Source of the DNA: Tetmemena sp. SeJ-2015
Taxonomy: Eukaryota > Ciliophora > Spirotrichea > Sporadotrichida > Oxytrichidae
DNA length: 64,000 bases
NCBI GenBank assembly: GCA_027382625.1
Contig: JAJKFJ010021722.1
Coordinates: 172,072-236,071 of the forward strand
Direction: 5' to 3'
Of this stretch, positions 2,865 through 49,170 are shown piece after piece. The stretch's first letter is position 1. The number at the start of each line of letters is the position of its first letter. Below the pieces are notes generated by a model. The model saw nothing but the letters and a program-made list of their open reading frames with translations, ran no database searches and was not told where the DNA came from. The position numbers were made by a program, and so were the translations under genes.

Positions 2865-5800
2865 ATGAAATCCCATCAAGTGGCTAACGAATAGCCATAC
2901 AGCTCCATCTTGAATTCTCAAGGGAAGACTCAGAAAATTCAATAAATGAAGAATCACCCAACCAATTTGAAGCCCTGCCTTCCCTCATTGAGAGAATAAA
3001 CTGAGGAGGAGAGACTTCAAACTAATTAGAGAGATGACTCTTACATTTAAACTATAGTAGATGGAAACCCTAAGATTATAAATAGACAAATTCAAAATTT
3101 CAATAATCTTAAAAACAAAACAACCAACCTCCAGAGTGCTTCAGTTATAAAGCAATCTAACTATAACGATTCCTGCAGCCTTATTTAAGATGAGGTCCGA
3201 TTCTTCAAAGACAAAGACGAAGTATCTATAAATGGCTCTGAAAATAAAAGTTCGCAAAGACATCAAATAATTTAAGGGATGAGTTCAGCTCATCTTTAAA
3301 AGATGACAAGTTAAGAGGTAAAAGGTTAATTATTCGAATCAAAGGCCTTTCTGAATTAAGTGAGACATTAATTTCCCATAACTTCAGCTAGATTACTCAT
3401 CTGGACTTAAGTCAAAATGTTTTGACTTCTCTAAAGTGATGTGGTTATGAGAAGTTTAGCTAATCTTAGAGTGCTTATTCTTAGCTAGAATAGAATTACT
3501 GTGATTAGCCCCATGGTTAAAAAGCTTACAAAGCTAATAACTTTGCGCTTAAATTCAAATTCAATTACCAGACTTCCTAATGAGATCGGAGAATTATAGG
3601 CTCTAGAGGATTTGGATGTCTCTGATAATAAATTATTTGGTGTTCCTGAATAATTATCCAGTATTTCTAGTCTTAATACTCTAAATTTATCTCTAAATAT
3701 GATCAGGAGTATCCCAGCAGAACTTGATTAACTCACAAAACTCGAAAAGCTCTACATAGAATAAAACATGTTCACCTCTTTTCCGTGCTCTCTAGGAAGA
3801 CTATTAAATCTTAAGGAGTTTTCCCTTGAATGGAATAAGTATATTTACTTAGAACCATAGCTTCCAAACCTCGTTACAACTGAAACTGATTTGGGAATTA
3901 AATGAAGGAAGACTTTTTTCTCAACATTCTAAAGACTCTGCAAACTGCTTGTACAGAATGATAAATTTTGCTTGTATAGTTAGCTCATCAACATATTTTA
4001 TTTCTCAGAGCAAGATTCTTATTGAAGCAGGGGCCGATCTGAATATAGAAAATTTAATGAGAGCTTTACACATCGCTGTAGTAAGAAACGATTAGCTACT
4101 TTCTGATATGATGATAAGGATTTATTCTTTAAGTTAGCTTAAGTTAATGTTATAGACGCTGATGGAAACACACCTCTACATTTCATAATGAATGTTTTCT
4201 CAAAGAGTGAAACTAAATACAAAGCAAAGGATTACAATGGTGTATTTAAATGTGATTTATATATTGAAACTTTTGATTATAACATGCCAGGTGGATAATA
4301 AAAATGGACTCCTTTGCATTTAGAAGAGAATGTATAAACTTTTAAAATTAAGTGGATCTTTAGAGAGCTTGAGAAAATTTCCTATCAATGTATATGCGAG
4401 GAACATAGATTTTATATTCAAGATAATGCACTAAAGGAAACCTCGTTCTCTTATTTCATTATGGAAATCTTTGAGCTTGAAAAGACTTCTGAGAATCTAA
4501 TCCTGAATAATCATCATCTGCCGATCAGACAAAGAATAAGAAGTTCTTCTCCAGAAAAGAGAAAGAAAGTTTAAATTGACGATGAAAGTGGGTACATATC
4601 CTTCCTAGATTAACTTTAGAGTATCAGAAGGAGATGAAATTTTAATCCTTGTATTTCAGGAAATTTTAGAGAAGAGTCTTCGACTGGAATAGTCACGTAT
4701 CATTGATATTCCAGAGACCGATGAGGAAGAAGAATAGACAGAAAACTAGAACTTTAATAAATCCTACTCACGACACATTCTTAATGATCTAAGAAAGCTT
4801 TCTTAATCTAAATTGTTGATAGGAGATTAAGATAGGAATTCAATCTTCGTAGACTTGATGAGAACTATGTCTCCTAGAACACTAGGGCAAAAACTTCACT
4901 TCTACTAAGGTAAAAATGCTTTAATAGCTGGAATTGATCTTTAAAAATTCTAAAAGTAGCTTAACGATTCAGTCATATAGAACGAAGCTAAACTTAAAAA
5001 TCGATTTCATTCTTCTCACCTAGAAATGGAAGACATATCAATATTTTCTATCTCAAAGATAAATAATCAATTTAAGAGTTCAATATAAGAAGGAAAAAAA
5101 CCATCAGAACTTTGATTAAATGCTCGGAAAAAATCTATAATTGATAAACTGCCAACTGTGGCACTTAACTTGTAATATAGATCAGTTATTGATGAACAGA
5201 TTAAGTTGATCGCAAATAGAGGATCTATGGAGTGCATTGATTTAGCTCTCAAGCAGTTATAGTCCTTGCTTGAAAACTATAAGCCCCTTGATGAAGCTCT
5301 AGTAGATGATATTGAGGATTATATTTCCACTCTTCTTTCCTAAAAAACTATGATATCGAAATTAAATTAAAGGGTCAAGCCTTCATTCATAGAAAGCCAA
5401 TCCAACATCCCGACTCAAAGGAAGCATAAGTACTCAAATTCAAAAAGCCTTGTTCCAAATCCAGCTTTTTCCAATGCTAATATTATTAACCTTCATCAAG
5501 TTTAGCAAATGCCTCTTAATCAATTCATATATCTAAAAGTTCTTTAGATATTTTGAATCATCAGCAGACTTACAGAGGAAGTGAGAGTGCTCCTAAGAAT
5601 CACTCTTCCTAGACAATAAACACATAGGCAACTATAGTTTTAAATAAAACTAAGGAACAAGCGATAATTGACTTTAACTAGACATAGAGAACACAAAACA
5701 CAGTTGATAATGGAATGCTTTTAAACAAAGATAGTATGAATTAGAGTAGCAAAGCCATAACTAATTTGAGCAACAAAAATGCTATTAACTCCAAAAAAGT

Positions 5801-5975: not shown

Positions 5976-6833
5976 ATGTTGCTGGCTATAGATCTTATTC
6001 CAAAAAAGATAAATTAAGGATAGAGTATGAACTTTAGCTTGAAGAATTATAATGTGGAGAAATTTTGAGAGGATTTGTGTTTTATGGTAATTTTCTTTGA
6101 CGATGAAGACAGAGAGAACTACGGCTTTGGCGATAATGTGATGAATTTTATGGTAGGATAGTGCCTATAGCAGTTAAATAATGGGCTAAGTATTCAAAAC
6201 GCTAATCTTCAGATCGAAGGAGATGTCATTAAAGTAGATGATAAACATTTCATCAAGATAATAATCATTAGGTCTATTTTTGCAAATCTTCTTTAGTTTA
6301 CATGGCTTAAAACTTCTATCATGATGTATTATCAATTATAAATATACTTAAAGAGTAAAGATGCTGCTAAATACTTAGAAGCGGCAACTTAGCATCAACA
6401 AAGAAAGCAAAACATTAAAAAGAAAGCAGGGGAAGTAGTTTGTACTTTCCTAGAGATAGATCCAGAACATAGTTTTAAGGAATGAATAATTACTAATTCT
6501 TGATTCCTTTACCGCTGAATAATTTATCTAAATCAAAAGCAGTTACGATCTTGAATGAGTTTAGATCTATCACTCTTGCTTTTAAAGAATTCAAAGATGG
6601 TATTTAGATAAAAAGAACCCAGTTTATCTATTATTTTAAAGCTTCAAGGACTTTATCATCTTTTGATAGAAGATATCCTATGGGTTGAATAACTTTATAT
6701 GATCTACGAGGATTTTAAGAAAACAATCATGGACTCCTAAATACTTCAAGATCAGAGCATAGTCTCCTAGATTTCTGAGATTTTCGAAGACCTTCACTCC
6801 TTTTATGAAAGTTACTTTTATGAGTCTGACTGA
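5976..6833 (+). CDS. hypothetical protein
   Basis: The reading begins at ATG 5976 (or a later ATG near 6030) and ends at TGA 6831-6833, about 280 residues. Text such as FFDDEDRENYGFGDNVMNFM and a long helical, charged C-terminal half (QLYMIYEDFKKTIMDSQILQ) look like a real protein, but I recognise no family. An apparent in-frame TGA at 6066-6068 lies in a 12-bp IES (pointer GAG). Two one-base slips at A runs (near 6,484 and 6,636) need correcting. It follows the LRR-ankyrin gene by about 70 bp on the same strand. Confidence 0.6.
6057..6068 (+). other. very short IES, 12 bp, pointer GAG
   Basis: GAG at 6057-6059 repeats at 6069-6071. The 12 bp between hold an in-frame TGA. Removal gives ...KNYNVEDLCFMVIFF in the same frame. 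A substitution creating TGA is the alternative. Confidence 0.6.
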
Positions 6834-6931: not shown

Positions 6932-7316
6932 TCAAATCTTTCTCTGTCTTTTATTCTCAGGAGCTTTCTCGTTGCCATGCTCATAAAATTATTGCAAAAG
7001 CTTTATTCATATAAATGGATGTTTATTAATTTTTAATACCTGTTTATTAAATGATTGCTTGGTCTTTAAGCACTCCCTTCTGTATAGAGTAGCCTTATCC
7101 ATATTTATGTAGCGAGAGGATAGAACCATTCCCTCCGAATTTATCATTCTCACACCCAAAAACCACATTCTTGACTCCTGCTAGATTAAAAATATTAGGA
7201 GTTATTAATGCAAGGCTCTACTGTCACATAGAGAGTGCATTCCTTTAAGAGATCTGCTTTCCCTTAGTCACTCAATTCATAGATGCAATTAATCTCGCAA
7301 TGAGTTGTTGCCTACA
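6932..7316 (-). CDS. ADAT2: ADAT2 tRNA adenosine deaminase, MDS 2 and 4 (scrambled gene, unit 1)
   Basis: ADAT2 is the catalytic subunit of the ADAT2/3 enzyme that converts wobble A34 to inosine in tRNA. Two MDSs lie here on the minus strand. MDS2 (7211-7316) carries the zinc/catalytic HCE motif (ATTHCEINCIYEL) and LLKECTLYVTVEPC. MDS4 (6932-7188) carries LAGVKNVVFGCENDKFGGNG and the tail APENKRQRKI before TGA (6932-6934). The 22-bp IES between them (7189-7210) replaces the second half of the zinc motif, which is found on the plus strand at 11801-11836. Links: TGTA (MDS1-2), GCCTTG (MDS2-3) and the 11-bp TTAATCTAGCA (MDS3-4). Three one-base homopolymer fixes are needed overall. The zinc ligands H, C and C are all present once MDS3 is added. 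Confidence 0.9.
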
Positions 7317-7608
7317 AATATAATTCAGCTGAGAAAAAAACTAATTGCAAGCACATTAAATTATACAATAAAAATTCTAAGTGATCTTACTATCACCTAT
7401 TAGGAGGGTTCATGGTAAAATTTATTATGAAAAGAAGAAACTTCCTCGGATTCTAAAGCAAGTTAGGCCTTTAAAGTAATAATAATTGATATATTTACTT
7501 GTTCAATAGCCATCGATATATTATGTTACAAATATTTTTAAATTATTTATTTAGGAAGCACTTGATCGATGGAAACGACGTGATCATTTTAATTTTTCAT
7601 TATTTTAA

Positions 7609-9602
7609 ATGAAATTAAGTAAATAAGGCACCATTGCCATTCTACCCAAGAGCACTGTTGTCCTCTCAGGTGACCACCCTCTTTCATAATAAAAAGGATG
7701 CTGAAATCGTTGCTATTCTTGAGAGCGACCTCTGGAAGAGAGAAGAATTCACTTCCAGGGTTTCTCAATAATAATATCAAATGAGAATCTTTTGAGATGA
7801 GAAGTGAATTTAAATGATTAAATAAAGAAATTAAGTCTTTAATTCTTTTTTGCTCCTATCCTCAATGTGTGTACTTAACTCACTCCAATTGAGTCTTCAT
7901 TACGAATTAGATGTTATTCAGAAACAATTTTTTGATTGGAGATAGTGTAAATATCAGCGCCTGGAACACAGCTATTATTAAATATGATTATCAGCATTAG
8001 TTAAATGAATTAAAAGAATTTAAATTAGAAGAAATCAAAATGATTCTAGACTATCACAATCAAGCAGCTGCTCCCAGCACTATCTTAGATGCTATAAAAG
8101 CATTAAAAAATTCTTCATAAAGTTCATAAACCAGTTGCGCATTCTGCCGATGGCGTAGAGCTCAAATACATGTTTATAATCTCTATCTCATCTAAAATCA
8201 AATTCTGAAAACGTGATCGTAGAACAGTCTTCATCTGGTAGCCATAACAACATTAGGGGTGTGTATCAAAATTTATTATTCAAACTGAGCTCGTAGCAAA
8301 AGTTAAATAAATAAAAATGAAATATGTATTCACTGACTCTAGTGTTTATGATTTGTAGATAGACTCTCCGTTTGACAATAATATTGTATAGAATTTTATG
8401 AGACAATAGAACCAAATGACGGCAATATTTATAATCTCAATTTTAAAACGCACTTATAGACAGACTTTTCATAGTAGATAAAATTTCTCCGCAAGGAATT
8501 TATAGAGTAAAGTTTTGCAAGAACGGTGAGTGGATCACTGTCACTATAGATGACTACTTCCCTTTCATTATTTAAGAGGAGAGCCTTTGTTCGCAAGAGC
8601 TCACGGAAACGAATTTCTGTTAACTATTACTTACTACGTGGTGGATTTGCACACGAGGCTTTGAATGTTCCTATTTAAAGTTATGATTTCGAAGATGAGT
8701 ATGTGCAGCATTTTGTTGAAAGTGGACAATTTTGGGAGTTGATTAAAATTTGTAGCTTTTTATTGAGGGCTACTTGCTTTCACTCTCAACTATATGCATT
8801 TATGACAGCTCTAAATGGACTTAAAAGATAAAGATGCAGTTGGGCCTAGAAAATTATAGATGAGCTTTTAGGATGCAATCAAGCAAATAATAATTATAGA
8901 AAGAAAATAGATACCAGTTTAAATTATAGCTATTTTATTATTAAAAATGTTGATAGTAATCTCTCGAAGATCCTACTTGGATATGGGCATTGCAATTTTG
9001 AAAAGAACTAGTGAGGGTGTTGAATTAGTGGATCATTATTTTTTACAGATTCTATAGGCAGTGTGAAATAGAAGTTAAACATAAAAGTATATTAAATGTA
9101 ATGAATGAATTGAAGATTAATTTAACTTAGAAGCTGGCTCTTACATAATATTGCCTCGTTCAACAGGATGCATAGAATTATGGCTCAAAGCTAGAACATT
9201 CAGTTGGTTAACATGCTATTATTCTTGACTGAGAAAGAATTCTAGAATGAGATACTAGGATAATAATATGGAGAGAAATTATAGAGGCATCATACTCAAG
9301 GGTTTCAAGGAATTCTTTAGACACTAAATTTAAGAGATCAAGTCAAATTAATAAAAGTGGAGTCTTATATTAGAGTGATGAGACTGTCTGGCAGTGGCTT
9401 GAGAATTTAGCATCCTACTTCTGTGAGAGATGCAGTGTAAACAGACCTAGATGCAAGAACCAACCTCCTCGTGATAGATAAGTTTGGCCAAGAATTAGAG
9501 AATAAAAAGATGCAATTATTTAAATAAAGAAATATAACTGTAGACATAACTCTTGACTGATGTATAATTGAATGCTTTTTAGTTCCAAATCCAATAAAAT
9601 CA
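7609..9602 (+). CDS. calpain-like protein, odd MDSs 1-31 (scrambled gene, unit 1)
   Basis: Calpains are papain-fold proteins with a C2-like domain. This copy holds the odd-numbered MDSs, which I place at 7609-7767, 8203-8251, 8332-8375, 8394-8419, 8450-8564, 8578-8615, 8622-8663, 8679-8747, 8764-8791, 8807-8863, 8955-9172, 9183-9215, 9224-9408, 9421-9509, 9536-9559 and 9572-9602. Recognisable text includes GIYRVKFCKNGEWITVTIDD, LLRGGFAHEAL, SYDFEDEYVQHFVESGQFW and EAGSYIILPRSTGC. Each MDS ends in a 4-11 bp word shared with the even MDSs at 12.05-14.40 kb, and joining them gives one continuous calpain. A normal IES (pointer TTAA) also interrupts MDS21 near 9,080. The 7768-8202 stretch is not explained. 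The order and joins are directly readable; MDS2 and part of MDS4 are the least certain. Confidence 0.9.
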
Positions 9603-9615
9603 TATATTTTTTATA

Positions 9616-10070
9616 ATGGCTAAGCAAGCTCTTGTTTCAACTCCTTAGCTATGGCATCAATGTTAACAGAAAGCGTAAGAGTCAAATATTATCATCTAAA
9701 TTTAGCAAGAACCAAGCACATTAGCTATATCTTAATCCTAATTATGAATTATAGAAATCAGAGAGGAGCATAGATTAGTTCAATTATTACACAGCTAGCT
9801 GTAATGAAGACTCGATCTCTTTATTAAGAATTTCTTCCTTTAATCAATTCATATGATTGAGGGAGGAATTAAAGATTACAAAAGATATAGTTTGAGGGTA
9901 GCGCGGAGTGATGAGTAAGCGATCTATTTAGTAACAGTGGAGATATTAATTAGAAAGAATGGCAAAAATATGGCATTTAGTTAAATAGTTATTAATTGCA
10001 GGAAATAATTGTCTAGACAACTTAACTACTTCCCTAACCCCACAAACAGCTCCTCTAAATAAACAAACAA
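9616..10070 (+). pseudogene. decayed or partner copy of the mS35 gene (unit 1)
   Basis: This stretch lies between the calpain and PA2G4 pieces of unit 1, exactly where mS35 lies in unit 2. It shares collinear words with mS35: GGCATCAA (9653 / 14601), TAAGAGTCA (9676 / 14709), TAGCTATA (9722 / 14762) and AAGATATAG (9882 / 15116), with looser similarity between. It reads partly open (for example MAKQALVSTPQLWHQC and YELQKSERSIDQFNYY), but in changing frames. Either it supplies MDSs for the 5' part of mS35, where the unit-2 copy is broken, or it is a decayed duplicate. I could not assemble a unique joined reading. Confidence 0.5.
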
Positions 10071-10085
10071 TCAAAATTACTTTTT

Positions 10086-10381
10086 TCATTCTTTCTTCTC
10101 CTCTTCCTTCTTAGCTGCCTTCTTCTTTTCTTCTCTCTTTAATTCAGCATCCTTGACTTTCTTGTCAGTCTCGAATCTCTCTCTTTAAAGCTTTATTTTA
10201 AAGCAGTGAGGAGATCGTGAGCAACGCATTCCTTAATAAAGAGAATGTTTATTATGATATAAACTCTCTGATCTGGGGTCTCCTTAGATTATTTGAATAA
10301 AGTGCTTCTTGAGCTTGTGGGAGAGAACATCTTCAACTTGCAAATCTAAGTAAACTTGGTGTTGGTTCCTTGCTCCTTGAT
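10086..10381 (-). CDS. PA2G4: PA2G4/EBP1, MDS C, E, G and I (scrambled gene, unit 1)
   Basis: PA2G4 (EBP1) is a methionine-aminopeptidase-fold protein of the ribosome and nucleolus that lacks peptidase activity. Four minus-strand MDSs lie here: C 10355-10381 (KEQGTNTK), E 10276-10329 (LSHKLKKHFIQIIQGDP), G 10201-10236 (KECVAHDLLTA) and I 10086-10182 (RFETDKKVKDAELK and a Lys-rich tail to TGA 10086-10088). They fill precisely the gaps in the copy at 15623-16287. Pointers linking them are ATCAAGGAGCAAG, CAAG, TGTTCTCT, AAGGAGACCC, TTAAGGAATGC, CTCACTGCTT and AGAGAGATTC. IESs between them are 18-39 bp. By itself this locus encodes nothing continuous. Confidence 0.93.
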
Positions 10382-10436
10382 TACTAAAAATTTAATTCTC
10401 TTAACGCATCTATTAAAATAAATGGATTTACTATTT

Positions 10437-10920
10437 TTTCTTGAAAGAATTGATCACCACTAATCCTTTTATAATGCGATTATGATGATGCCACTACGAT
10501 TGATAAGGACAACTCTATGCTCTTTTGAAGTTAAATTGACCAAATCAGAGCTGTACGCAGAAAAATAGATTACTTTTTCATTCTATACCTTACTATAATC
10601 ATTATTATTCTTTAGAAGGAAACTGCAGAGATTCTTGAGGCATCAGTTTAGACGTGTTAAAAATAAATCAACCAAAAACTAGCAAATCATTGAGTAATTG
10701 AAAATAGGATTAATAGCTGTTCTACTTCCTCCATCGTTGATACAACTCCAAACAATCGAAATTTAATCCTTGTTGCAGATTTCTCCTGTGTACGAAGTGG
10801 AACTGAAGAGTTAAATTATTAGAAACACTATCTTACTTCTATAATACATTTAAAGAATTGCTCCATGGTTTCAATTGGCAACTTGGATTCTCTTTTAATA
10901 ACTTGTAAGTATTTATATCT
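10437..10920 (-). CDS. TH1/PH-like fragment (probably scrambled, unit 1)
   Basis: Minus-strand text from 10,600 to 10,437 reads DYSKVQNEKVIYFSAYSSDL then EHRVVLINRSGIIIIAL and LVVINSFKK. This resembles the first strands of a myosin-I tail (TH1) or PH-like fold, but the match is from memory and weak. Both ends of the segment are shared with the minus strand at 16.88-17.25 kb: GATTATA (10594-10600 and 17068-17074) and the 16-bp CAATTCTTTCAAGAAA (10437-10452 and 17025-17040). Joining through them keeps the frame (FPRQKDYSKVQNEK...INSFKKESIFRLY). Further upstream (10,665-10,920) an open minus frame reads NNLTLQFHFVHRRNLQQG and may belong to the same gene. Confidence 0.5.
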
Positions 10921-10950
10921 TAATAAATTTGTAATTCAAATTAATTTAAA

Positions 10951-11479
10951 TGGAATCGACACAAAATAACTAAGATACCTCCGCAAAGGAGAGCCAGCCT
11001 GGAGCAAACTATTTAATACATCAAATATTTAATCAAGTAAATTATATTAAAAAGTGCAAATACATTTCAAATGCAATACTAACTTACTCAAGAAGATAAA
11101 TATGCAAATTGATGATTGAAGAAAAGAACAAGAATAAAGAGAAGAGACTCATAGGCTTGGTCAACTCAATTTTCTAAATTTAAAAATTAGAAGTACTATA
11201 ATGATGTATGAAGCTCATAGACTGGAGTTCTAAAATGAAAGAATCCCCTTCTTCAAGAGTAAGTCGCAAACCAAAGTACAATGATCCAGACCAATTTATG
11301 TACTTTAGAGAGAATGGGAATGATCTAACAATCCTAGACCACTTAGATCCTGTCTAATTCTTAGCTTTATAGATGAATAGTAAGGCTATTGAAGGAATTG
11401 ACAAATCAATCTTTCAATAAAATGAGGTTCTTAATGCAGCTTCCAATGCTTTTAAAACAATGATACTAACTATGGGTTG
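10951..11479 (+). CDS. hypothetical protein, unit 1 copy
   Basis: The ATG at 10951 gives MESTQNNQDTSAKESQPGAN, a helical charged middle (KLMIEEKNKNKEKRLIGLVN) and, after one frame break near 11,200, KLIDWSSKMKESP, DPDQFMYFRENGNDL and a C-terminus ending in TGA at about 11,477. I do not recognise the family. The segment KLIDWSSKMKES resembles KLTIDWDKSKKKT in the gene at 17,298, which occupies the same place in unit 2. The two are therefore probably duplicates or halves of one scrambled gene. Confidence 0.5.
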
Positions 11480-11563
11480 AATTCGCAATGGACTACGAAA
11501 TATATTATGAGACTAATTTATCCTTATATCTATAATTCAATTTTGCGAAATTATAAATTTATA

Positions 11564-11836
11564 ATGGAAAGTTTAGAAAAGTTTGAACAAAAGAGAATGC
11601 AAGAGGAGCTAATGTCGATGGCTAAAGAAATTTAACTAAATGAAGAAGTTCCTGTTGGATGCGTGTTTTACCATAAAATTTACAACCCTTATCAAATCAC
11701 ATAATCTGACGAATAGAACAAAAAATGTAAGTATCAAGCCTCTTTATATAATTTAATGAATGATTAGGCTTACATTTAACTATAATAATTTTATTTTAAG
11801 GCCTTGTATTATGTGTGCTACGCACTTAATCTAGCA
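11564..11836 (+). CDS. ADAT2: ADAT2, MDS 1 and 3 (scrambled gene, unit 2)
   Basis: MDS1 (11564-11729) starts with the ATG and encodes MESLEKFEQKRMQEELMSMA followed by NEEVPVGCVFYHK, the usual N-terminal strand of the deaminase fold. It ends at pointer TGTA, which continues on the minus strand at 7316. MDS3 (11801-11836) is only 36 bp and encodes PCIMCA and ALNLA, that is the zinc-binding PCxxC. It is bounded by GCCTTG and TTAATCTAGCA, both also present at 7211-7216 and 7178-7188. Assembling ADAT2 therefore needs two inversions over about 4.5 kb. One missing T in GCTAC (11818-11822) must be assumed to keep the frame. Confidence 0.9.
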
Positions 11837-12045
11837 ATCTTTATTAATGAATGAAACATATATATTTATTAATGCTATAGATAGAAAGAATTCAATTTAA
11901 AAAGAAATAGCGAAGGACATAATTCTTCACTATCATTAATTTACATAAATTGTTTATAGTAAGTTATCTTCTTTATCTATTTCAGCTTATATAATGTCTC
12001 TTAGATTGAATCAAACGCTTTCAAAGAGGTGGAATTCATAGCAGA

Positions 12046-14404
12046 TTTCTCAGGTTCTGAAAATAGATTTTATAATAATTTTAGCTAGTCATAACAACCA
12101 AAGTGTTGCCTCAAGTAAGAGTGAGAAAGCTGGGCTCCTAGTTAAGAAAGAAATTGGCCCTTTTCAAAAAATGGATTAAATAGATTAGTTCAAAAGTTAG
12201 ACTGATGAAGAATTGGAAGTTGAAGTCAAGGTTTCGCTTTACCTTGAAAAATCCTCCTATGGATAGATAAAAGGAACAGCTCAGAAAGTATCTGACAGAG
12301 CACAAATCCAAAATAGACTCGGCTAGGAAAGTATTCTCTAGAGTACCTTTCTCTCTTTTGCCGATTGAGCAAGCTGAACAGAAGATTAAGGAACTTAACT
12401 TTTCAAATTTCATAGACATGGAATTTGAGCCAACTGACTCTTGTCTAAATTACAAGATATAAGTAATATCTAGTACTAGTCTCCGTTTGATGTGATCGTC
12501 CATTGGAGGAGGCCTCATGAATTTATGAGGGCTGATTATTCAGAAGGGATATTAGACCCTGCAGTCTTTTATGAGTTTAATTCTGTAATCAAATGATGTG
12601 CGTCCTGGAGTTTTAGGAAATGAGTGGTTCTTGTCAGCTGTCTCTATCTTGGCTGAGAGACCTGCACTTTAACAAAATATTTACCTTGTTACCCAGAGGG
12701 AGAGCAGTTATTTCTTAATCGAATTGTGGGTGATGCTTTTGGAAAAAGCTTATGTAAATTAACTTCAAGTTTTTTATTAAAGATATAGGCTAAACTTCAT
12801 GGAAACTATTACAATAATTGAAGAGGCTTTGCTCGATTTAACAGGCTGTCCCACTATCAGTTATGATGTTTATAATTTGATTAAATACTTTGATGATGAG
12901 GGCTTAAGGAAAGTATTACAATATTAAAGTAAAATTATCAAGTTATTAATTGAGATAAGTCATTTAAAATTAAATTCACGTTGCTTAAATTTATAAATAT
13001 TAAATTCAAAGTTAATAAACGAATAATAATCTTTCATCTCAACTTAAGGCGAAGGTAGATGGATTGATAACAACTAAATAACTTAAAACACTCATGAAAT
13101 GAAAGAGAGCGCAGATGATGGCTCCAATAATAAGGATCCGCTAGTTATTAATCCCTTACCTCGAGGGCAAGCCTTCTCCATAGTTCTAGTGAAAGATGTC
13201 TTGGGAAACTTTAACTGCTCAACCTCAGATCTTCTCTGTAAAGTTATGAGTGGAAAGGAGACTGGAGTGAGAAGAGCTCTACTCTGTAAAGGATTTGGGC
13301 CTGTGTTCGTTTAAAATTAAGATGATGGTGATGGGACATTCTGGATGTGCTTTAAGTTTCAATCAAGCATTTCAAGTCACTAAATGTCTGCAGAATTAAG
13401 AATTGGGAAGAAGTAAGGATCAAAGGAAAGTTCATTAGAGTGCAAGATATTGAAGATCCAAATGTTGAAATGGTCATATCTAAATGGTAAATAGGCACAA
13501 AATTATTTATGATCTTTTAATTAAACAGTTAAAGTTTACTATTCAATAGACTTGCATGAGCAAACCAGGATTTTCATAAGTCTGCATCAAGAAGACGAAC
13601 GTATTAAGGGAGTAATCTCGATTAATTCAAGATAGTTGATCTTAAAGACTTCGTGTAAGATAGGCATTGTACAATAGCATATCTAAGAAGGAAGGATGCA
13701 CTTTAAAGAGACCTGAAAATGCTCAAATTAATATAATATGTTAACATGAACGGGTAACTTCATGAATATTTGATTTCAACAATTGAGGATATTTTCCACA
13801 AGTTTGATATGCTTATGAACTAAGAGCTCACTTTCTGTGAATTCAAAGGCTTTTGTGAGTGTATTGGAAGAACAAACTTGACTAATGAATATATAGATAC
13901 TCGGTCGCTATCATTCAACAAACAGAGGCATAATAAATTTTTCCAAAGTCAAATTATGGAGGTAGTGATGAGAAATTGATTTTCTTTTTAATACGGAGAA
14001 TTTGGGTTATGATAGAGACCTGCACTCAGTTCGGTCAAGATGCTTTGTGCTAACTTTTCACTCTGCTATTGAAGTCTCTGTAACTGTGAGAGTGCACTCC
14101 TTAGATTTGCTTAGAATAAAAAGGGCTACAAACTCTTCTATACTTTCTCAGAGCAAGTTCACGCTTACACCTACGCAATTCAAAATAATGTGGGCAAAAC
14201 TGTAGTTGCATATTATAATAATCTACTAGTATCTTGACTGTAGCACTTCTTAGAACATGCTTTTTACTATTTCATGGTTGATAGTTTAAAATCACAAAGA
14301 GAATAGAGGCAGGACACACTGAGTTTATGATGCACACACTTGCCATGCCAAACGTGCAAAAGTTTATCCGTAGTGCGAAAGTAATCATGAGGGAAATCAA
14401 TTGA
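12046..14404 (+). CDS. calpain-like protein, even MDSs 2-32 (scrambled gene, unit 2)
   Basis: This copy holds the even MDSs: 12046-12063, 12090-12441, 12480-12575, 12590-12669, 12684-12705, 12720-12812, 12823-12867, 12877-12904, 13037-13280, 13320-13619, 13694-13727, 13741-13883, 13996-14092, 14113-14205, 14233-14266 and 14288-14404 (stop TGA 14402-14404). Text includes HWRRPHEFMRADYSEGILDP, VRPGVLGNEWFLSAVSILAE, ELWVMLLEKAY, EDIFHKFDMLMNQELTFCEF and NLGYDRDLHSVRSRCFVLTF. MDS12 contains a GT-AG intron. In the joined protein the three protease residues are replaced: GDCWFL reads GNEWFL, GHAYSI reads GQAFSI, and the NPWG Asn region reads RSSLQ. It is probably a non-proteolytic calpain-fold protein. 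Confidence 0.9.
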
Positions 14405-14516
14405 AACAATTGAAACATTAGTTGAATTATAAGTTTGAGGAATTATATTTTAACTCACACGCTTAATGATTATGAAAGATTAATTTTAAGGCTCTTAATA
14501 AATATTATAATATAAA

Positions 14517-15590
14517 ATGGCAATGCTTTTCACACTAAGAAATAGCCTCCTTAACAATTTAATGGCTCAGATAGATTTTTCTACTCCTGTCAGGTTCTCT
14601 GGCATCAAATTACAATCGACATTATTATTGCAGTTCCAAGAAGAATTACGGAAATTAACTTATTAGAATAAGAGGAATAATAAATTAATTTGAGATCTGT
14701 TATTTTTTTAAGAGTCACAATATGATTATACAAATCTCTCTTATTAATCTTGTTTATGCAATAGCTATAACTGCATCCCAGAGTGGCAGTAGCCAACCAA
14801 AGTAGATCCTTTTGATTATAAGCTGAGAACCCCCAAAGAAATCTTGATTAATTTTCTAGATTAGTGCCTCCAGTTTTCCCATTGAATGTTGAGCATTGCG
14901 AATATCCCAACGGAGATACTACACCTGGAAACCTAGATTTCAGAGAAACTGTCGTAAGTATATATACTTCTCTAATAAGGTTTTCCAAATTTTAAAGTTC
15001 CATTCCTAATCATTAATCTAAACGCATCTCTATTATAGTGCAAAATCTAATTCAAGTTATCAGACATGGATTTGAGCGACTTGCAGCGTCAAAGATTGAT
15101 ATACTTGCTTGGTCCAAGATATAGAGAAGGCTAGGACATTCAGAAGATTGTTAGCAAGTCATTTAGAACTTATCACGAGAACTACGTAAAGGGATTTGAA
15201 ACCTTAAGAGAAATTTTCTGGGAAGCTAAGCGCGCACCTCATCCTCATGTTAAGGACCTTAGGAACCCTTATAAGAGAGAAAGAGCAATCAAGTCATTGC
15301 TCGGAAAAACTAAGGCAGAGAGAACTAAAACCATGAAGGACTGGAAAGACTGGCTTGAGCAAAGGAAGGTTGAAGTAGAGGCTGAGGAACTTGGTCTAAA
15401 GAAGAAGAAAGAGGAATAGGCTCTAGCAGAAGCTGAAGCTAACAAGGACCCAGTGATGGCTGGAAGAATGAAGAGAAGACTTCAAGCCAGAAAGAGAACC
15501 CATTAAGGTTAATTAGTTGAACATATCGGCAGACTCGACTACCTCACAGATCCATCAGTTCAAGATGAAACAACTCAGAAAAAGTAATGA
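14517..15590 (+). CDS. MRPS35: mitochondrial small ribosomal subunit protein mS35
   Basis: mS35 is a mitochondrial addition to the small ribosomal subunit. The conserved core is clear: FPLNVEHCEYPNGDTTPGNL, LSDLQRQRLIYLLGPRYREG and SFRTYHENYVKGFETLREIF, followed by a Lys/Glu-rich tail to TGA 15588-15590. A GT-AG intron of about 90 nt lies within 14952-15040 (GTAAGT...TTATAG). The 5' third, from ATG 14517, is broken: the frame stops near 14,700 and resumes around 14,780 (EWQQPTKVDPFDYKLRTPKE). A T-run slip is needed at 14,860. The break coincides with words shared with 9616-10070, so the 5' end may also be scrambled. Being imported, the protein should have an N-terminal presequence; the first residues (MAMLFTLRNSLLNN) are compatible. 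Confidence 0.8.
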
Positions 15591-15622
15591 AGACTCATTT
15601 ATCAAGAGATATAGCCTTATCT

Positions 15623-16287
15623 GAATCTCTCTACTGAAAGAGGAAACTACATTTTGTAGAAGTATTTCTTAATGGTGCACTTGAACTGAGCAACAACTTC
15701 TCCAGCTTTCTCAACGAAGACGGGGTAAGCAGTGAGCATGATAATAATAGCATTCCTTAACTCCAACCTTGGCTCCAGTGGAGTCCTCAAAGCTTCTGAT
15801 GGAGAAAGGAAGAGTGGGGTACTTCTTGTTAACCTCAGTGAAGAAAGCTCTTGCCTTTTGGAGCTTTAGGTTGTATTGAGTGTCGAGCTCTCTCTTATAG
15901 ACGGTGGTTCTGAATTCACTCTCCTTGGGCTTTCCCTCTCCAGTGGAGATATAAACGTCCAACCCAATAACATCACCTGGGGCGAACTCAAACTCCTCAA
16001 CTCTCTCAGAAAAGTATAAGGGTCTCCTTGTTAAGGATCACTAGTAAAACTTTCTAAGAGAATCAAGTTACCACAAGTGTTAAAGAAGAGAACACCTTCA
16101 ACTGGGTTGCATTCGAATTCAGCAGCGATCTTTCCAATAACTTCAGTAACCTTGATGATAAATAGGATAATGCTTGCTCCTTGATGAGTCTCTGAGCAGC
16201 TCTGAAAGCGTGGTATGCAGCGAGCACAACTTCAGCCTTTCTTCCTGAAACCTTGGAGGCGGGATCAGCAGAGACGACCACAGTGTG
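15623..16287 (-). CDS. PA2G4: PA2G4/EBP1, MDS B, D, F and H (scrambled gene, unit 2)
   Basis: Minus-strand MDSs are B 16173-16287 (VSADPASKVSGRKAEVVLAA), D 16087-16154 (VTEVIGKIAAEFECNPVEGV), F 15750-16029 (FEFAPGDVIGLDVYISTGEG through GAKVGVKEC) and H 15623-15736 (YPVFVEKAGEVVAQFKCTI). IESs between them are only 13-57 bp. Every gap is filled by an MDS at 10086-10381 through 4-13 bp pointers, giving one unbroken PA2G4 from the FVAQAAHT junction to the Lys-rich end. One extra T is needed in MDS F near 16,012. Near-identical sequence extends past some pointers with a single mismatch, as if the pointer repeat was once longer. Confidence 0.95.
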
Positions 16288-16467
16288 GGCAGCCTTAAAA
16301 ATTCATTTCAAGAGTAATAGATAAGAAATTAAGTCTCATTCCATCTCTCAAATTTGACCTGAATTTAATTTTTCTCTCTTATTCCTTTATCTTCTAATTG
16401 ACTTGCGGAAATACAGAAAACAGGGAGAAAATTATATTAAATTACTAATTCGCAAACAGTATTGAAT

Positions 16468-16877
16468 ATGGTTGAGTCCAGAGATAGAGCAGATAGCGTT
16501 GAGGAAGAATTCAAGGACGAGAACTTCATCGAGAGACCCGCAATTCTCGACAAGTACAAGGCTGCCGCTCAAATCGCCAACGCCGCACTCCTGAAAGTCA
16601 TTTCCCTCTGTGTTCCTTCTAAAAATGCGTTCGTTATTACACTATCTGCCAGGAGGGAGATAAGATGATTGATGAGGAATTGAAGAAGGTGTTCAACAAC
16701 AAGAAGGCAAAGAAGTTGGAGAGAGGTATCGCTTTCCCCACTTGCGTTTCAGTCAACTAAGTCATGGGCCACTACTCCCCCATGCAAGATGAGTCAGTTC
16801 AGCTCCAAGAGGGAGATGTTGCAAAGATCGATCTCGGCTGCCACCTCGACGGATTCGTCGCCCAGGCTGCACACACT
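16468..16877 (+). CDS. PA2G4: PA2G4/EBP1, N-terminal MDS A (inverted relative to the rest)
   Basis: The ATG at 16468 opens MVESRDRADSVEEEF, the family's KYKAAAQIANAALLKVI helix, and then ICQEGDKMIDEELKKVF, GIAFPTCVSVN and AKIDLGCHLDGFVAQAAHT. It ends at pointer CACACT (16872-16877). The next segment starts with the same CACACT on the opposite strand at 16287, so this MDS must be inverted to join. Within it the frame changes between CVPS and TICQEGD (16612-16640). A 17-bp IES with pointer GTTC (16612-16628) would restore the frame but drops four residues expected after CV; a one-base slip is the alternative. Confidence 0.93.
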
Positions 16878-16879
16878 CA

Positions 16880-17180
16880 CATTATTATGATAATTCTTTG
16901 AGAAATAATCTAATCTAATGCAGCTGAGATCTTAAGAATGAGCATGAAGCTGAGGTTTGCATTTAGACGTTAGAGAGAAATAAGAAAGTTTAAATTTAAA
17001 ATTATAAAGCCTAAAAATGCTCTCTTTCTTGAAAGAATTGTCTTCATCATTGATTTATTCTTATGCTTATAATCCTTTTGTCGAGGAAATAGAACTTGAG
17101 AACAAGGGAATAAGTTCTCTTGACCCTCATTCAGTTGATTTACTAGGCCGTTTTTCAGAACTATTAGAATATAATAGATC
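16880..17180 (-). CDS. TH1/PH-like fragment, unit 2 part
   Basis: Minus-strand text reads ENLFPCSQVLFPRQKDY up to pointer GATTATA (17068-17074). From the 16-bp word at 17025-17040 it continues as SFKKESIFRLYNFKFKLSYF and LTSKCKPQLHAHSQ. The segment missing between these words sits at 10437-10600 on the same strand. It lies directly after PA2G4 in unit 2, as its partner does in unit 1. Start, stop and full gene structure were not found. Confidence 0.45.
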
Positions 17181-17297
17181 TCTCTCCTTTGCAATAAATC
17201 TTTTGTTTAATTATTACCATGCCTGCCCTAAAGGTTCTTTATTTAATTCATGATTTTAATCTTACAAGAATTTGTTATTAATTTTGTGAGCAGCAAA

Positions 17298-17885
17298 ATG
17301 ACTGAGTATTTTGCCAAAACTGAAAAGACACTTCTATATAATCAAATGAAAGGGCAGTAAGTCCGTTCTTAAGAGAGAACTCACTCAGATGCTTATTATA
17401 ATTATATCATATGATAAGATCAAAGATAACATAATAGAAGGACTGCAGAAGGCTGTTCAGTCTCAATTTATTTATATATAAATTGTTTCAAGAGATAGCT
17501 TCAATAAAAGGACCAATAATTCCAGAAACTCACTATCGATTGGGACAAGAGCAAGAAGAAAACTTAATCAACATGAAATATATTTTACAATTAATATTCA
17601 GATGATGTCAATACTCTCACTTCTAAATTCATAATTCATTAAAGGAAAGGAACAGCCAAAAAGGAAAACAACTTTAACTCTTCAACAATATGTACTTCAA
17701 AGGATTCAATTAAACGAGTAGCTCAGAATGAGGAAGCAGAGCAAGATACTTAATTTAAATTGCGATTAAGATTAAGGTAAATATTTCCAAATATAATAAC
17801 TTCAATTAAGAGGCAAGCAAACTACATATAAATATCTAATAGAGCTTAGGTTGTAGATATTAGGTCAGGCTATTCACATAATTTG
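17298..17885 (+). CDS. hypothetical protein, unit 2 copy
   Basis: The ATG at 17298 gives MTEYFAKTEKTLLYNQMKGQ. After frame changes the text continues FQKLTIDWDKSKKKT and, across a 27-bp IES (pointer TTAAT, hiding an in-frame TGA), YSDDVNTLTSKFIIHQRKGT and a basic C-terminus (FKLRLRLR). A TGA near 17,883 probably ends it. It overlaps or abuts the 3' end of the convergent minus-strand gene. KLTIDWDKSKKKT matches KLIDWSSKMKES of the gene at 10,951, which sits at the same place in unit 1. Family unknown; MDSs may be shared between the two copies. Confidence 0.5.
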
Positions 17886-20800
17886 AAGATCTTAATTGAT
17901 GTTAGGCCCTCCGAAGTGATTATATTAGTTGTTGAACATTTGAGCCTGTCCATAGGTATTAGCCTCATCATAAAATTAGTACTAGTTAAGATCTTCATTA
18001 GACTCGGTTTGAGGGTGCTGCTGCATTTATTCATTGAATTCAGCATCCTAACCTTGGCGAGTTGCATTTTGAACTATAAGCAACTGATTGACGAATTTTT
18101 CTAGAAGTGGAACCTGTCTAGAGTTGTCATCACTAATATGAGTGAGCTAACTGGAGAGAAGTTATACTATTTCACTATAAGTCATCTGTTTGTTGTTATG
18201 AGGGTCAACTATAGACAGAAGCTGTTCTAGCAAATAAGATATTTCAACTCCCATCTTGATAATCAAATCTCTAAATTCGTTCTCATCGATGATGCCGTTG
18301 CTATCTTGATCTACTTGCTTGAATAAAGAGGTGAAACTAGAGAGGAACTTCTCATGCTCAATAAGTTAAAAGTCGAGAATTATCTTCAGGAATTCAGAGT
18401 AAAGCAGCTTTACAGTCTACTTGCTCTGCCTGTGTTATAATAAGATATTTGCTCCTCGTCTCTACTCATCTTCCTTGTTGCAAACTATTATTGAATTTGA
18501 TAGTTTAATTCCTTTCCTGAGTTCTATCATCTCCATGAATTTATTGCCAAATCATATGAGAACAGTCATCTGAATCGTACATCTTATTGACTATCTTTTT
18601 CCAATAAGCATACAAATATATTTTAACAAACCACACAATTTGAATAATCATCGTCTAGGTAGCTATTTTGAATATGTTCACACATCTAGACAATCTCTCC
18701 TTCACTCTTAAGGTGGTGCTTTTCCCTTACTAGCACTTTAAGCAAGTTAGAGAGCGTATCTCTCACATGCATCTGAATGAATCTGAACTCCTCATCGCAT
18801 TCGTTCTTAAGGATTTTGCCAAACAAGGTGACTTCATGATCGTCTTTTAAGTAAGTTCTAACACCATGAATGATAGTACTCGCCCATTCGATGATAAGAG
18901 ATTTCAACCCATACTTCTGATTGAGATATGTATACATGAATTGCTCCCAAATCATAGATAAACTTACTTTATTTACAAACTCATGCATGAAACTAATCAC
19001 CTTTATTTTATGAGAGTTTAATGATTTGGATTCTCTGCATTTGATATCATACTTTACTTTCTGTGAGTAAATGTCATTGATTATATCCTTAAGTTACTTC
19101 AATGGAAGGATTTTATGATTCTAGTTAGAGATAGATTGGTGCCCCCCTTGGAAATTGTTCATAGGTTGGGTTGAGGCCACTATCTGCTGTAGGCCTGTGC
19201 CAATGGAATTGTTTATTTACGGTTTCTGGTATTGCTAGCTTTGGTTTCCATTGAATTGCTGTGAATGAAGAGGCTGTCTTTACTAGGCTATTTATTACTG
19301 TTACTGCTAGTTCAGTACGTTTTGATTAACATTTCCAAAATTAACAGCCGAAGAAGTGGAGGGCTGCTAAGAATGTAGGTAATTAGTGTTTTGAGAGATA
19401 GAGCTCATGGGGTTATGACTCTCTTTTATAACCTGACTATTGAAATTGAAGTTAGGGTTTGAGCCACCAGCTGGAGTTGTTACGTTGCTTGCTTTCGTCT
19501 TTGAGTGACGAATTAGAGTGTCAAGTAACCTTTTATTTTCCTCCTCTAGGCTTTGCTATTAAGTCTCATAGTATTCCTTAGATTCTCTCATATCGTTTTT
19601 CAATTACTTTAAACAACTTATGGTTGATTCCCTCTCGAGGGTTTCAGCTGCCTCAAATTAATTTCTCTCTTTAAATATAATTCGACTGAATAAACTATCT
19701 TTTGAGTGACTTTATCTCTTCTTCATGAGACTTATTAATATGGTTTTCAATAGATCTTATCATGCTCTTAAAGCTTTGAGTTAATGTAAGCTTCTGAGTA
19801 GTAGGGTTTATAATTATTTGATCTAGCAGGGAGGACATTGAGTTAATTACATTCACACCTGCTTCGAACAATCTATTTTGATACCGTATAAGTTTACTCA
19901 CAATGTTGAAAGCCTCTTTGTCAGTTTTATTTATTCAACTTTAAACATAAGATTCCTAAAACTGAATTCAACTTCTTTTATTGATTGATTAAGAAGTCAT
20001 TTTGTTGAAGCACATAGCAATGAGTGATTACTTAGTCTAGAGAATGATCTTCTTTTTCATGACTTCCTTATCGTTCTTTTAATCGTCTTGTAGTTCTTAC
20101 AAGTTCACACTTAAATCGTACATGATATTTTTCAAATGCTGATCGAACTCCTCCGCAAGCTTTTTATCGATATTGTGCTCAATTTTTCTCGTAACAATAA
20201 AAGGAATCACTTTCTTGAAGTCTGATTTGATCATAGAGAATAGCTATATTCTCTAAGTCCTAAGCTCGTAGTTCTTTTTCCTCTGGAGCTTCATCCTCGA
20301 AGCAATAATTCTGCTCTAGCAACATGTTGCCTCCTTCGTGACTCACTTAACTAGTATTCAAGTTGTCCTTATAAAAAAGCTACTGATCTTACTTAAAGCA
20401 TCATCATAATCGATCTTGATTTGGCTGTTATCTTTCAAGATTGGGTAACTTTCTTGGCGCTAATTGAGACTAGCAGGTCCGGAATAAGGTGCTGCTGAGG
20501 TCCTGAATTCCATTTAACTCTAGCTGTTGAGTCCATAGTTGGAGTTTTGGGAAGTTGGCATCTAGTTGTTAGACTCTTTTGACTCAAATAAAGACTATCA
20601 ATAATTGAAATTTGACTTCTCCATATTCTTAGAGCTCTATCTTTGATAGTTCTACTATTATTGAGCAAGCTGCTACTGTTGTATAAGCTGCTGCTGATGA
20701 TCGTAATTTTGCGACTTCTGGCCCACATTATGAGCACTCTCTCGTTGGTATTGCTGCTTTTCCTATTGCATCTGCTAATCTTAGGAAACGGAAAAAGACT

Positions 20801-30314: not shown

Positions 30315-33300
30315 TCAGACATAGTTCTAGCTCATTTATTTAAGGACTCCCCACTATTCTGTTTGTCCATCGGGCCCTATAATACCTTCCATTCTTTCTT
30401 CATCAAGCTCATCTACATCCACTGATTGAATGTGAGATTGATCGGGGGCTTTACCACCACCCTATGCCTGCTAGTCACCCTCGCTGTCTCTTCTTCCCCC
30501 AAAGCTCTTCCTTGACCTATGGCTATCAAGTTTGCTTTCAAGTCCAGATGTTTGATTATGCTCGTTCAATGCCTCTTCCTCTCCTGCCTTTAACGATTGA
30601 GCTAATGCAATGCTCTTCTTTAGCTTGTTAGGTTTCTGTCCTTGAACTTCAATCCTCTGCTGATTCAACTTTTTGTCAAGTTTATACTGATTTTCCTCTG
30701 GTTGAAGCTGTATGAACTTGAGCAATCCCTCAATAGTCTGAGCACTGATAATTGACACATCGAAAGGTTTGCTCATTCTCTTATCTTCAATCTTGACATT
30801 CAGTTGCTTCTCGAATTTTTCTTTCTCCTTTAAGATATCTTGAAGCTTCTTCTGCTCTTTAGTCTTGCGAGTTGTACTCTATCCTCCTACTCGAGAAGTC
30901 GAATTGGTGATGTTGGTGTCATTCAACACTCCACCTGAAATAGCTGCAGTTGAATTTTGCTTTTGAAGCATGTTTCTCTTTGAGGCTTAAGAACTTCCAA
31001 TTATAGATCTTCCTCTTGAACGAGCTCCACCAATCTTTGGGGGTTTTCCACTCAGAGAGCTTTGATCCAATTTCTCTAATAGCTTTGCCTCTAGCTTTAA
31101 TCCACCAGCACCAGACAATAAATCTTTGAAAAATAATTAGAAATAATCTTGTCCCAGAATTGCAACTCTTATCAAAGCCTTTTTGAAATCTTCGTAATCT
31201 AAGGAGCTCACACCCGTCCCAAGCTCATCAATTTCTTTCTGACTTAGTTTCTCTCGTCTCTCGCGAATCATAGCCCTAAATATCATAACCATGTCATCTC
31301 TAAAATTAAAACATCAGGAATTAGGAAAAAAGCTTGTCATCATTAGGTACAATTGTTGGAGTAATTAAGCACTGATATCCAAATTTAATGAACTCATTGA
31401 AGTTTACTCTTTGCAGTGAATTAGCGAGGTTAAACCCTATTTCCTTCTTATCCTGTGATGCATAAAATTTGAAAAGCTACTCCAGAGCTCTATCGTACTT
31501 AATGTAAACTTGCTGAACCTCTGGCTACTGGAAAAATTCATTGATCTATTCCCTTTCTCTTTGTTCTACCTTATACTGATCTTTATTCTACTTGATATAA
31601 GACTCCATCTGATTTTTAACTTTGCTCTGTTTCTCTTTCTTCCACTCTTCAAATTCTTTCTCTGCCTTATCAGCTTATTCTTTTTCTCTCTTTTTTCTTT
31701 AGAATTCCTCCTCTAACTTCTCTTTTTACTTTTTCATGAATTCCTTTTATTCTTATGCCTTTTGCTATTTCTCTAATCTCTTTTTCTCCTCGTCCTCTGA
31801 CTTCAGATTAATCGCTTAGTCCTACTCTTTACTTCTTTTATTCTTCTATTTGAACCTTTCTTTGATCATATTAAGTTAAATTATTTTAAGTCTCAAGGGA
31901 TTTTATAAGATATTTGGCTTTCTGCTCCTCTTTGAGCTTCCTTTCTTTTTCCTTTTACTCTTTCTCCCTTGCGAGTAGTAGCTATTTTTGTTCCTCAGCA
32001 CTCTTACCCTTGACATCTCTTTATTTTTCAATTTCGCTATCCAATTGCTACTTTCTCTTCTGTCTCTTCTCCTCTCTTAATCGCTCAGCTTCTCTCTCTT
32101 CCAGCTCTTTCAACTTCTTGTCTTCCTTTGCTTTGTTCCAAAAGTCCTTCGTGAATTTCACTTTCTCTCTGTCAGGAAGCTTGCTCTAACCTTTCTCAAC
32201 TGCTTATAAAATCTCCTCTAGAACTTCTGCAGTGTCTTGCAAGTGAGTTCGATCTTTCACAGAGATGGAGTCTTTTTAAAGTTGATAGAGTGCTAAGTTT
32301 TAAATCAACGCCAAGTTGAGGCTTCTATATAAGATGAAAATATATATATAGTTCTTATAAATTTCAGGTTGCTTTTGAGAGTTATCCGAAGCAGATGAAG
32401 GCAGAAGCACACTCTTGCTATTGAGAGAGGTAAATTGTTTTTTCTCAATAGGCTTCATATATTAAAGGGAAGGGTTTGCAGATGGCATCATAAGTGAAGA
32501 CTACTTTATTCTAGGGCTTTACTTTAACTCTTTGCTCATAAGAAACTAGCGCCTCTAAGATGTGAAAACCAAGTGCCGAACTAACTATCTAATCTAGAAC
32601 TTCAACAGCTATCTTCTTTTCTTCAGAGATCTCCAAATAATCAGGGAGCACATAGTTGTGGATCTGCTCTTTCTCAGTAATTTTATAGAATCCCTCTGGG
32701 AGAAGCATGTCAGGGTTATCTCTAACTCTTTTGTTCATTTCCTTTAAAACATCTTAATCACCAATTGAAGTAGCATCAGGATCTTCATAGAGTAGAGTAC
32801 TTTAGCCTCTGCTTCTTGTGGCTTTTTCAAAATGCTAAATGAGTTTTGAAACCATTTCTGTCGGATTGAGGTAAGAAGGAGGTTTGGAATAAGAGAAGCA
32901 AGCTATTTAAATTATCAACTGCATAAAAGCCCCGAAATCCAATGCTGATAAATCTAACCTCTTGTAAAGCTTACTATTTTGGACTCTTATTAATTACTAA
33001 AGTTAATCTTTGCTGATCATACTCTGATTCACATCGTGATCTCTCAGCATTTTATTTATCTCAGCTAAGTTTATGGTTTTATCTCCATAATAATCGAAAC
33101 TTTAAACCTTCATGTGCTAAGATCTACTTAAAGCATACTTATTGAAAAGGAATTTGAATGGTTTTAGAACTTCTAGAGCAAAATCTTGACTCCATCTTTC
33201 TCTCTTTCTTCCTCTTCATTCTCTAGATCAATTAATTTGATGCTATTAACTTCGGTTCCCTTAACCTTACTCTGTGATTGAACCCGAGGAGTCTCTTAGT

Positions 33301-46839: not shown

Positions 46840-46976
46840 CCAAAATTAAATTTTTTTATTCTAAATTTCTTTATTAACCTGTTCAGAAAAGTTTAAGGAC
46901 AAGTTTAAATTAAAAGCATGGAGAAAAGCCAAAATTAAGGATATTTAAATAGAATTATTCTTTTGATTTGAGTGAT

Positions 46977-47765: not shown

Positions 47766-48110
47766 GATAATATAAATTTGAATTTTAATTTTGTTGAGAA
47801 AAAATAATTCTTTAAAACATCTCAAGAAGAAAAAATAATTAACACATCAAAGAGTTCTTTAATAAATCCTATGCTCAATGAATTTTATTCATTATAGGCC
47901 AAAAAAAATTTACATACATGATTTAAACAATCTAGAAGAGTAATTGAACTCTTTATCCTGAGGAAGTATTTTTACAAGATAAAGATCTATTTACAATGTA
48001 AAATATAAATATTTGGAGACAATAATCTTTCTTAATTTGAGGAATGATGAAATTAATAAGCAATATCATTTTTTGGTACCATTGATTTATCACGGATCTT
48101 ACAGAAAACT
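47766..48110. other. intergenic spacer between Mpv17 paralogs a and b
   Basis: About 345 bp of very AT-rich DNA. No coding potential, RNA gene or repeat was recognised. Confidence 0.5.
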
Positions 48111-49096: not shown

Positions 49097-49170
49097 AGTT
49101 TGATTTTAAATTAATTTTGCTATAATTCTCATCAAATTAGCTTAAAGATTATAAAAGTAACAACTTAAAA

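Follow-up and report, generated by a model that had tools for sequence, protein, structure and literature searches.

Two accounts of the origin of scrambled genes are debated, duplication with decay and stepwise recombination. A duplication-and-decay model of odd/even scrambled genes was reportedly proposed by Gao et al. in 2015. This study concerns a 64,000-nucleotide stretch of Tetmemena sp. SeJ-2015 (contig JAJKFJ010021722.1, positions 172,072 to 236,071; hereafter, the window). In it, two adjoining stretches, unit L and unit R, carry pieces of the same neighboring genes in the same order. Three of the genes, ADAT2, a calpain-like gene, and PA2G4, are rebuilt from pieces in both stretches. 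We hold with moderate confidence that at least five neighbors (H, ADAT2, the calpain-like gene, PA2G4, and X) came to be split between the two stretches by tandem duplication of a block and complementary loss.

The closest described systems are compared here on the basis of excerpts of the cited papers. In the duplication-and-decay model, two paralogous sources are woven into one gene, with exchange at short exact repeats (pointers), as at this locus (Feng et al., 2022; PMC9797194). The duplications named there are those of macronuclear-destined segments (MDSs) or local gene duplications, whereas here several adjacent genes share one source pair. The lengths of MDSs and internal eliminated sequences (IESs) are reported to correlate strongly in Euplotes woodruffi and weakly in Oxytricha and Tetmemena (PMC9797194); at this locus, the correlation is absent. 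In the interleaved loci of Oxytricha, MDSs of different chromosomes lie inside each other's IESs (Braun et al., 2018; PMC5940158). The same holds here, as the pieces run ADAT2-L, calpain-L, ADAT2-R, calpain-R, each gene having one or more MDSs within an IES of the other; what sets this locus apart from those of Oxytricha is the single parallel order in which five or six genes are interleaved. Russian doll loci are likewise multi-gene germline clusters that mix pieces of several genes (PMC5940158; PMC9797194), but they form nested layers, whereas the present locus is parallel, first one unit and then the other. Nesting of all pieces of one gene in a single IES of another fails for ADAT2 and the calpain-like gene, since calpain-R lies beyond ADAT2-R. 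A 77-kb tandem duplication in the Oxytricha germline is a comparably large duplication of germline DNA; its copies make two paralogous chromosomes (PMC5940158), whereas here one set would come from both copies together. A further case is that of alternative MDSs arising from segmental duplication, where germline segments duplicated side by side are combined (PMC4684698). There, shared and alternative MDSs yield several paralogous genes, unlike here, and in neighboring sequence the authors noticed no remnants of the duplicates that were lost. In the openly licensed literature searched, as far as excerpts of it go, no same-order multi-gene scrambled block was found. Duplication with decay and interleaved loci are already known; such a block would be new.

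Three genes rebuilt from two stretches

The region belongs to a 146-Mb assembly of 5213 contigs. TAA and TAG were read as glutamine and TGA as stop. The original prediction, made from the letters of the window, had set unit L at 6.9-11.5 kb and unit R at 11.5-17.9 kb. A purpose-written aligner was used to fit protein profiles, built from ciliate relatives and other protein matches, to both strands of 6.4-18.5 kb (12.1 kb). Jumps were allowed solely at exact repeats or GT-AG introns. Jump costs were set high, as low costs over-fragmented the profile paths. A reversed profile and a separate region (30.0-42.1 kb) were used as controls.

The calpain-like gene scored 1677.7 (reversed profile, 49.1; separate region, 48.9), PA2G4 scored 1542.5 (62.8 and 42.9), and ADAT2 scored 463.0 (37.0 and 50.5). 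Each score is at least nine times the control scores, which range from 37 to 63. From one stretch, the scores were 400.7 (L) and 1125.6 (R) for the calpain-like gene, 184.8 and 1260.1 for PA2G4, and 450.6 and 71.7 for ADAT2. The predicted use of segments from both stretches, with exact repeats of 4-13 bp at the joins, was thus confirmed for all three genes.

The calpain-like gene has the clearest pattern. Its path alternates between 8.1-9.6 kb and 11.9-14.4 kb; a free search gave 41 segments, all 41 on the plus strand and 39 in order within both intervals. A hand-curated list holds 41 pointers of 4-11 bp (median 8) that rise monotonically in both stretches. Consecutive segments alternate between two ordered clusters, which is odd/even scrambling, and exact short repeats stand at the joins. 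In 39 intervals, the unused stretch, or IES, is short and AT-rich (GC 0.21 versus 0.38 in MDSs). The assembled protein (8109-14404) shares 51.8% identity with a Moneuplotes protein across 832 columns. It presumably lacks the catalytic residues, as GNEW, GQAF, and RSSLQ stand where calpains have C, H, and N, the last site being uncertain.

PA2G4 was assembled from 18 segments into an open frame of 389 residues, with exact repeats of 4-13 bp at the joins. The segments are in order inside each of five clusters, but a third cluster, outside the two series, is present at 7.55-7.97 kb. The prediction that each copy kept what the other lost therefore fails for PA2G4, which requires this third site (7556-7735 plus; 7970-7950 minus). 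Among relatives, the ten best PA2G4 matches are on contigs no longer than 1.1-1.7 kb.

For ADAT2, the start of the gene and two short pieces lie at 11.56-11.84 kb on the plus strand, and the remainder lies at 7420-6935 on the minus strand. The segment SHNLTNRTKN is exclusive to unit R (best in the window, 47.6 versus 31.5 for the next), and FYHEPSQQVIVR is exclusive to unit L (best in the window, 44.5 versus 22.4). Neither ADAT2 copy had been predicted to be complete. This stands in that SHNLTNRTKN is missing from unit L, but unit L is nearly complete alone, and the strands are opposite in the two units. One switch falls at a 12-bp repeat inside a likely intron, with GTAAGT in unit R and AG in unit L (11727-11758 and 7365-7312). 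The Stylonychia protein P0123 has an insert at this position, which we interpret as retention of the same intron. The ADAT2 matches of relatives (P0122-P0127) lie on contigs of 0.56-1.0 kb. The ADAT2 segment 11801-11836 is shifted by one base relative to the frame of its neighbors, through an assembly error or an unseen junction.

That frame slip leaves room for small assembly errors. An artefact on the scale of the locus, whether from the misjoining of haplotypes or from germline reads fused with somatic ones, is very improbable: the two stretches lack the near-identity of alleles, and misjoining would not be expected to yield one long protein and 41 pointers in order.

Gene order in the two units

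Genes beyond these three were sought by reference-free braiding with codon scores. Scores trained on PA2G4 rebuilt part of the calpain-like gene, and scores trained on the latter rebuilt most of it; being circular for that gene, the latter were used as evidence for other genes alone. Ranking of tiles by braid score favored coding-rich tiles, and summed pointer length was therefore read alongside.

The corrected order in both units is H, ADAT2, the calpain-like gene, mS35 (weak), PA2G4, and X (Table 1). Five genes, or six with mS35, thus stand in identical order within two adjacent stretches on one contig, and the sources are collinear both in the order of the five genes and in the pointers inside genes. 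Orientation is the same in L and R for H, the calpain-like gene, mS35, and the 3' part of PA2G4, and opposite for ADAT2 and X. By arithmetic, independent events would give a shared five-gene order with a chance of about 1/120, a figure reached after the fact, since H and X came from scanning. The core of the original prediction, a gene order repeated in two adjacent stretches, is real; its boundaries and its last two genes, TH1-like and hypothetical, are wrong. The "hypothetical" at 11.2-11.48 kb opens unit R, and its partner at 6.3-6.7 kb precedes the start of the block as drawn.

That gene, here termed H, has the pointers AAGAGTAA, GATCCAGA, CTAATTCTT, TGCTTTTAAA, and CTATGGGTTGAAT, with words of 13, 10, 9, 8, and 8 bp. 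The core of the H braid outscored all 120 of its control pairings. By summed pointer length, the partner ranked first of 600 tiles from the R side (57 versus 35) and first of 812 from the L side; by braid score, it was fifth from the R side and outside the top six from the L side. No residual protein similarity was found between the two H alternatives (p 0.59).

At the other end, a reference-free scan paired 10.42-10.71 kb with 20.5-19.4 kb on the opposite strand, with words of 15, 12, 12, 10, 9, and 9 bp among others. The pointers of this gene X are TCTTGAAAGA, CGATTATGATGATGC, ATAAGGACAACT, CAAATCAGA, AGAAAAAT, AATCAACCA, AGTAATTGAAAA, and TTAATAGC. Two joins reopen the frame where X read alone meets a stop. 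Among 238 tiles, X had the greatest summed pointer length (62 versus 55), and one of 120 controls scored as high.

mS35 is probably the sixth gene of the block. In unit R, an upstream stop closes its frame, which makes a join necessary at that point. The candidate pointers to unit L are TAATGGCT, TGGCATCAA, TAAGAGTCA, and TAGATTAGT; among 548 tiles, the L-R braid shared first place in summed pointer length. Of the predicted presence of mS35 in both units, the R copy with its MRP-S28 domain is upheld, whereas the L piece is suggestive (3/120 controls as high; 7/80 for the wider stretch).

Table 1. Features of the two units and adjoining sequence (window positions).
Feature	Unit	Position	Strand	Basis or remark
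Gene H ("hypothetical" of the original prediction), 3' part	L	6351-6690	+	Reference-free braid with 11201-11482
ADAT2, most of the gene	L	6935-7420	-	Profile alignment; inverted relative to unit R
ADAT2, second version of N-terminal segment (KAQLALESEEVSS)	L	7433-7471	-	In frame with 7420
PA2G4, third site, three MDSs (KHLIDGND, TIAILPKSTVVLSGDH, KDAEIVAILESDLW)		7556-7735	+	Profile alignment
PA2G4, third site, one MDS (CVPGADI)		7950-7970	-	Profile alignment
Calpain-like gene, alternate MDSs	L	8109-9602	+	41 listed pointers collinear with unit R
mS35, candidate 5' pieces (weak)	L	9614-9779	+	Pointers in order with 14560-14865
PA2G4, six MDSs	L	10089-10381	-	Profile alignment; collinear with 15623-16185 in reference-free scan
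Coiled-coil gene X (not TH1), MDSs	L	10439-10717	+	Pointers common to 20440-19562 minus
Gene H, alternate pieces	R	11201-11482	+	Reference-free braid
ADAT2 start, second exon piece, 5' part of intron, short MDS	R	11564-11836	+	Profile alignment
Calpain-like gene, alternate MDSs	R	11901-14404	+	Profile alignment, pointers
mS35	R	14560-15587	+	3' part has MRP-S28 domain (Pfam PF10213, E 1.3e-7); plant mS35 chains from E 1.7e-4
PA2G4, six MDSs	R	15632-16293	-	Profile alignment
PA2G4, 5' part, two MDSs	R	16468-16865	+	Opposite strand to remaining PA2G4
"TH1-like" and "hypothetical" in the second copy of the original prediction		16945-17885		Open frames, no supported partner
Gene X, main locus (coiled coil, Q-rich)		18566-20545	-	Reference-free scan

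Origin of the shared order

A tandem block duplication would account for this order as follows. One multi-gene block would have been duplicated in tandem, giving two parallel sources, and the two copies would then have lost complementary pieces. During macronuclear development, each gene would be assembled by switching between blocks at exact repeats, under the guidance of parental templates, as is the case in Oxytricha. Where a segment was damaged in one copy, assembly could use the other, and all genes of the block would drift to odd/even scrambling together. Inversions at a later time may account for the orientation of ADAT2 in the first unit and of X beyond the second, and the third PA2G4 donor site may have been gained by further duplication. 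The stronger claim, that one block duplication made at least five genes odd/even scrambled together and left the decayed copies as one interleaved template for separate somatic chromosomes, is evenly balanced in our judgment.

Gene order is the main support for duplication, because traces outside the pointers are faint. ADAT2 offers the most direct one. In unit L, KAQLALESEEVSS lies directly upstream of the FYHEPS segment in the same frame, and its unit R counterpart is MAKEIQLNEEVPV at 11618-11656. In six frames of the whole window, KAQLALESEEVSS is the best match to profile columns 34-46 and 36-45 and the fourth for columns 32-45; none of 300 shuffles of 7421-7495 scored as high. To judge by sequence, both units hold a version of this N-terminal segment outside any pointer, as duplication predicts, whichever of the two is used. 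Similarity between MDSs and exchanged IESs outside pointers gave p 0.008 by dinucleotide shuffle (53 of 54 pairs). This shuffle was trusted more because it keeps the end letters, which are trimmed to a mismatch; the signal is still faint. The length correlation in the 15 non-calpain pairs was rho 0.50 (p 0.057).

Several results weigh against a block duplication. MDS and exchanged-IES lengths are uncorrelated in the calpain-like gene (rho 0.08, p 0.64, 39 pairs) and over all 54 pairs (rho 0.17, p 0.22). The similarity of the same 53 pairs gave p 0.36 by mononucleotide shuffle, and further MDS/IES similarity tests gave p 0.056, 0.20, 0.029, and 0.030. The 29 of 39 calpain IESs that were tested had no residual match to the profile columns replaced (p 0.84). 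Spacers gave no more than borderline values (mS35-PA2G4, p 0.04-0.06; tail, p 0.02-0.05) and otherwise stayed at chance level. The orientation of ADAT2 and of X differs between the units, PA2G4 needs its third site, and mS35 in unit L is weak. H was near noise in a plain chain scan, its wider stretch was equalled by 5 of 120 controls, and its lead from the L side was 44 versus 42. By braid score X was outside the top six tiles, and both X and H lead solely by summed pointer length. A pooled p of 0.013 for residual match was not used, as the PA2G4 rows were untrimmed of pointers.

The original prediction had named a lack of weak homology outside pointers as grounds for rejection. For the calpain-like gene this lack is nearly complete; for the ADAT2 N-terminal segment it is not found. 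As these two results are opposed, the weight given to block duplication was left as before. According to Feng et al. (2022; PMC9797194), loci of greater age show weaker traces of this kind. The single tandem duplication with reciprocal decay that had been predicted remains the best reading, with the shared order of five or six genes in its favor and the third PA2G4 site, the inversions, and the lack of a residual match in the tested calpain IESs against it.

The calpain results speak for the older model of Landweber and Chang, summarized in PMC9797194, in which MDSs and IESs recombine stepwise at short AT-rich repeats, gene by gene and with no duplication. The uncorrelated lengths, the short and very AT-rich IESs, and the scarcity of similarity beyond the pointers suit this model. 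It predicts neither that the second clusters of five neighboring genes share one order nor that the ADAT2 N-terminal segment occurs in two versions, and we regard it as unlikely here. Slightly less likely still is a separate duplication of each gene at different times, with adjacency due to chance or to selection for closeness. The inverted partners of ADAT2 and X and the third PA2G4 site suit separate events, as does a 280-bp calpain 3' fragment copied alone to another contig; the one order shared by the clusters does not.

Other copies, neighboring features, and significance

The calpain fragment (14212-14484, the 3' end with an IES) recurs at 90% on contig C2919 (L030 1873-2143), and this dispersed copy indicates by sequence that partial germline duplication happens in this genome. 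A second germline locus with the genes intact, which the original prediction had held would count against it, was looked for. None was found for PA2G4: all seven assembly matches at E 0.01 lie in this region. For ADAT2, three of five matches lie here, and the other two are distant at 33% identity. The calpain family has 70 matches in the assembly; five loci compared with the assembled protein matched piecewise at 27-55% identity, and none is the same gene intact. A DNA search of the assembly, in which simple repeats were skipped and the best candidates alone were scored, gave no full second copy of 6.9-18.4 kb, and two weaker short matches lie on C2587 and C2480. In addition, 117 bp of 10832-10948 is 100% identical on contig C2341 (L036 2103-2219) and is coding-like up to GTAAGT.

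The name TH1 was abandoned. Neither the open frames nor the joined piece had a Pfam match to PF04858 (TH1/NELF-C/D), no solved-structure match was found at E 0.001, and 10.44-10.72 kb is part of gene X. A six-frame search of the own genome with PF04858 was empty; it gave a signal in none of 14 control genomes either and is hence uninformative. The 16-bp junction word that had been noted is indeed common to 17.0-17.9 kb and 10437-10470, as is a 10-bp word, but the pairing is unsupported by score. When 17.0-17.9 kb was paired with 10382-11560, 22 of 80 controls scored as high (8/40 and 14/40). The summed pointer length of 86 for this pairing topped all 80 controls (highest, 78); pieces of X and H also lie in 10.4-11.6 kb. 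For 17.0-17.4 kb, a candidate partner at 4.3-5.1 kb (braid with 4200-5300) was rejected, with 19 of 120 controls as high. No tile among 628 stood out as a partner for 16945-17885.

Elsewhere in the window, 46955-49697 holds direct repeats (20, 17, 14, and 13 bp) that are offset by a near-constant 1.32-1.335 kb and probably mark a tandem duplication of younger age. A collinear chain of six direct words of up to 13 bp links 31601-31854 with 33188-33448 and is above a single shuffled control window.

The order of genes in a block outlasts sequence similarity, so same-order interleaved blocks provide a test between the two debated origins of scrambled genes that can be used on old loci. If the block duplication is true, a single event scrambles many genes, which would help to explain why scrambling is common in this lineage.

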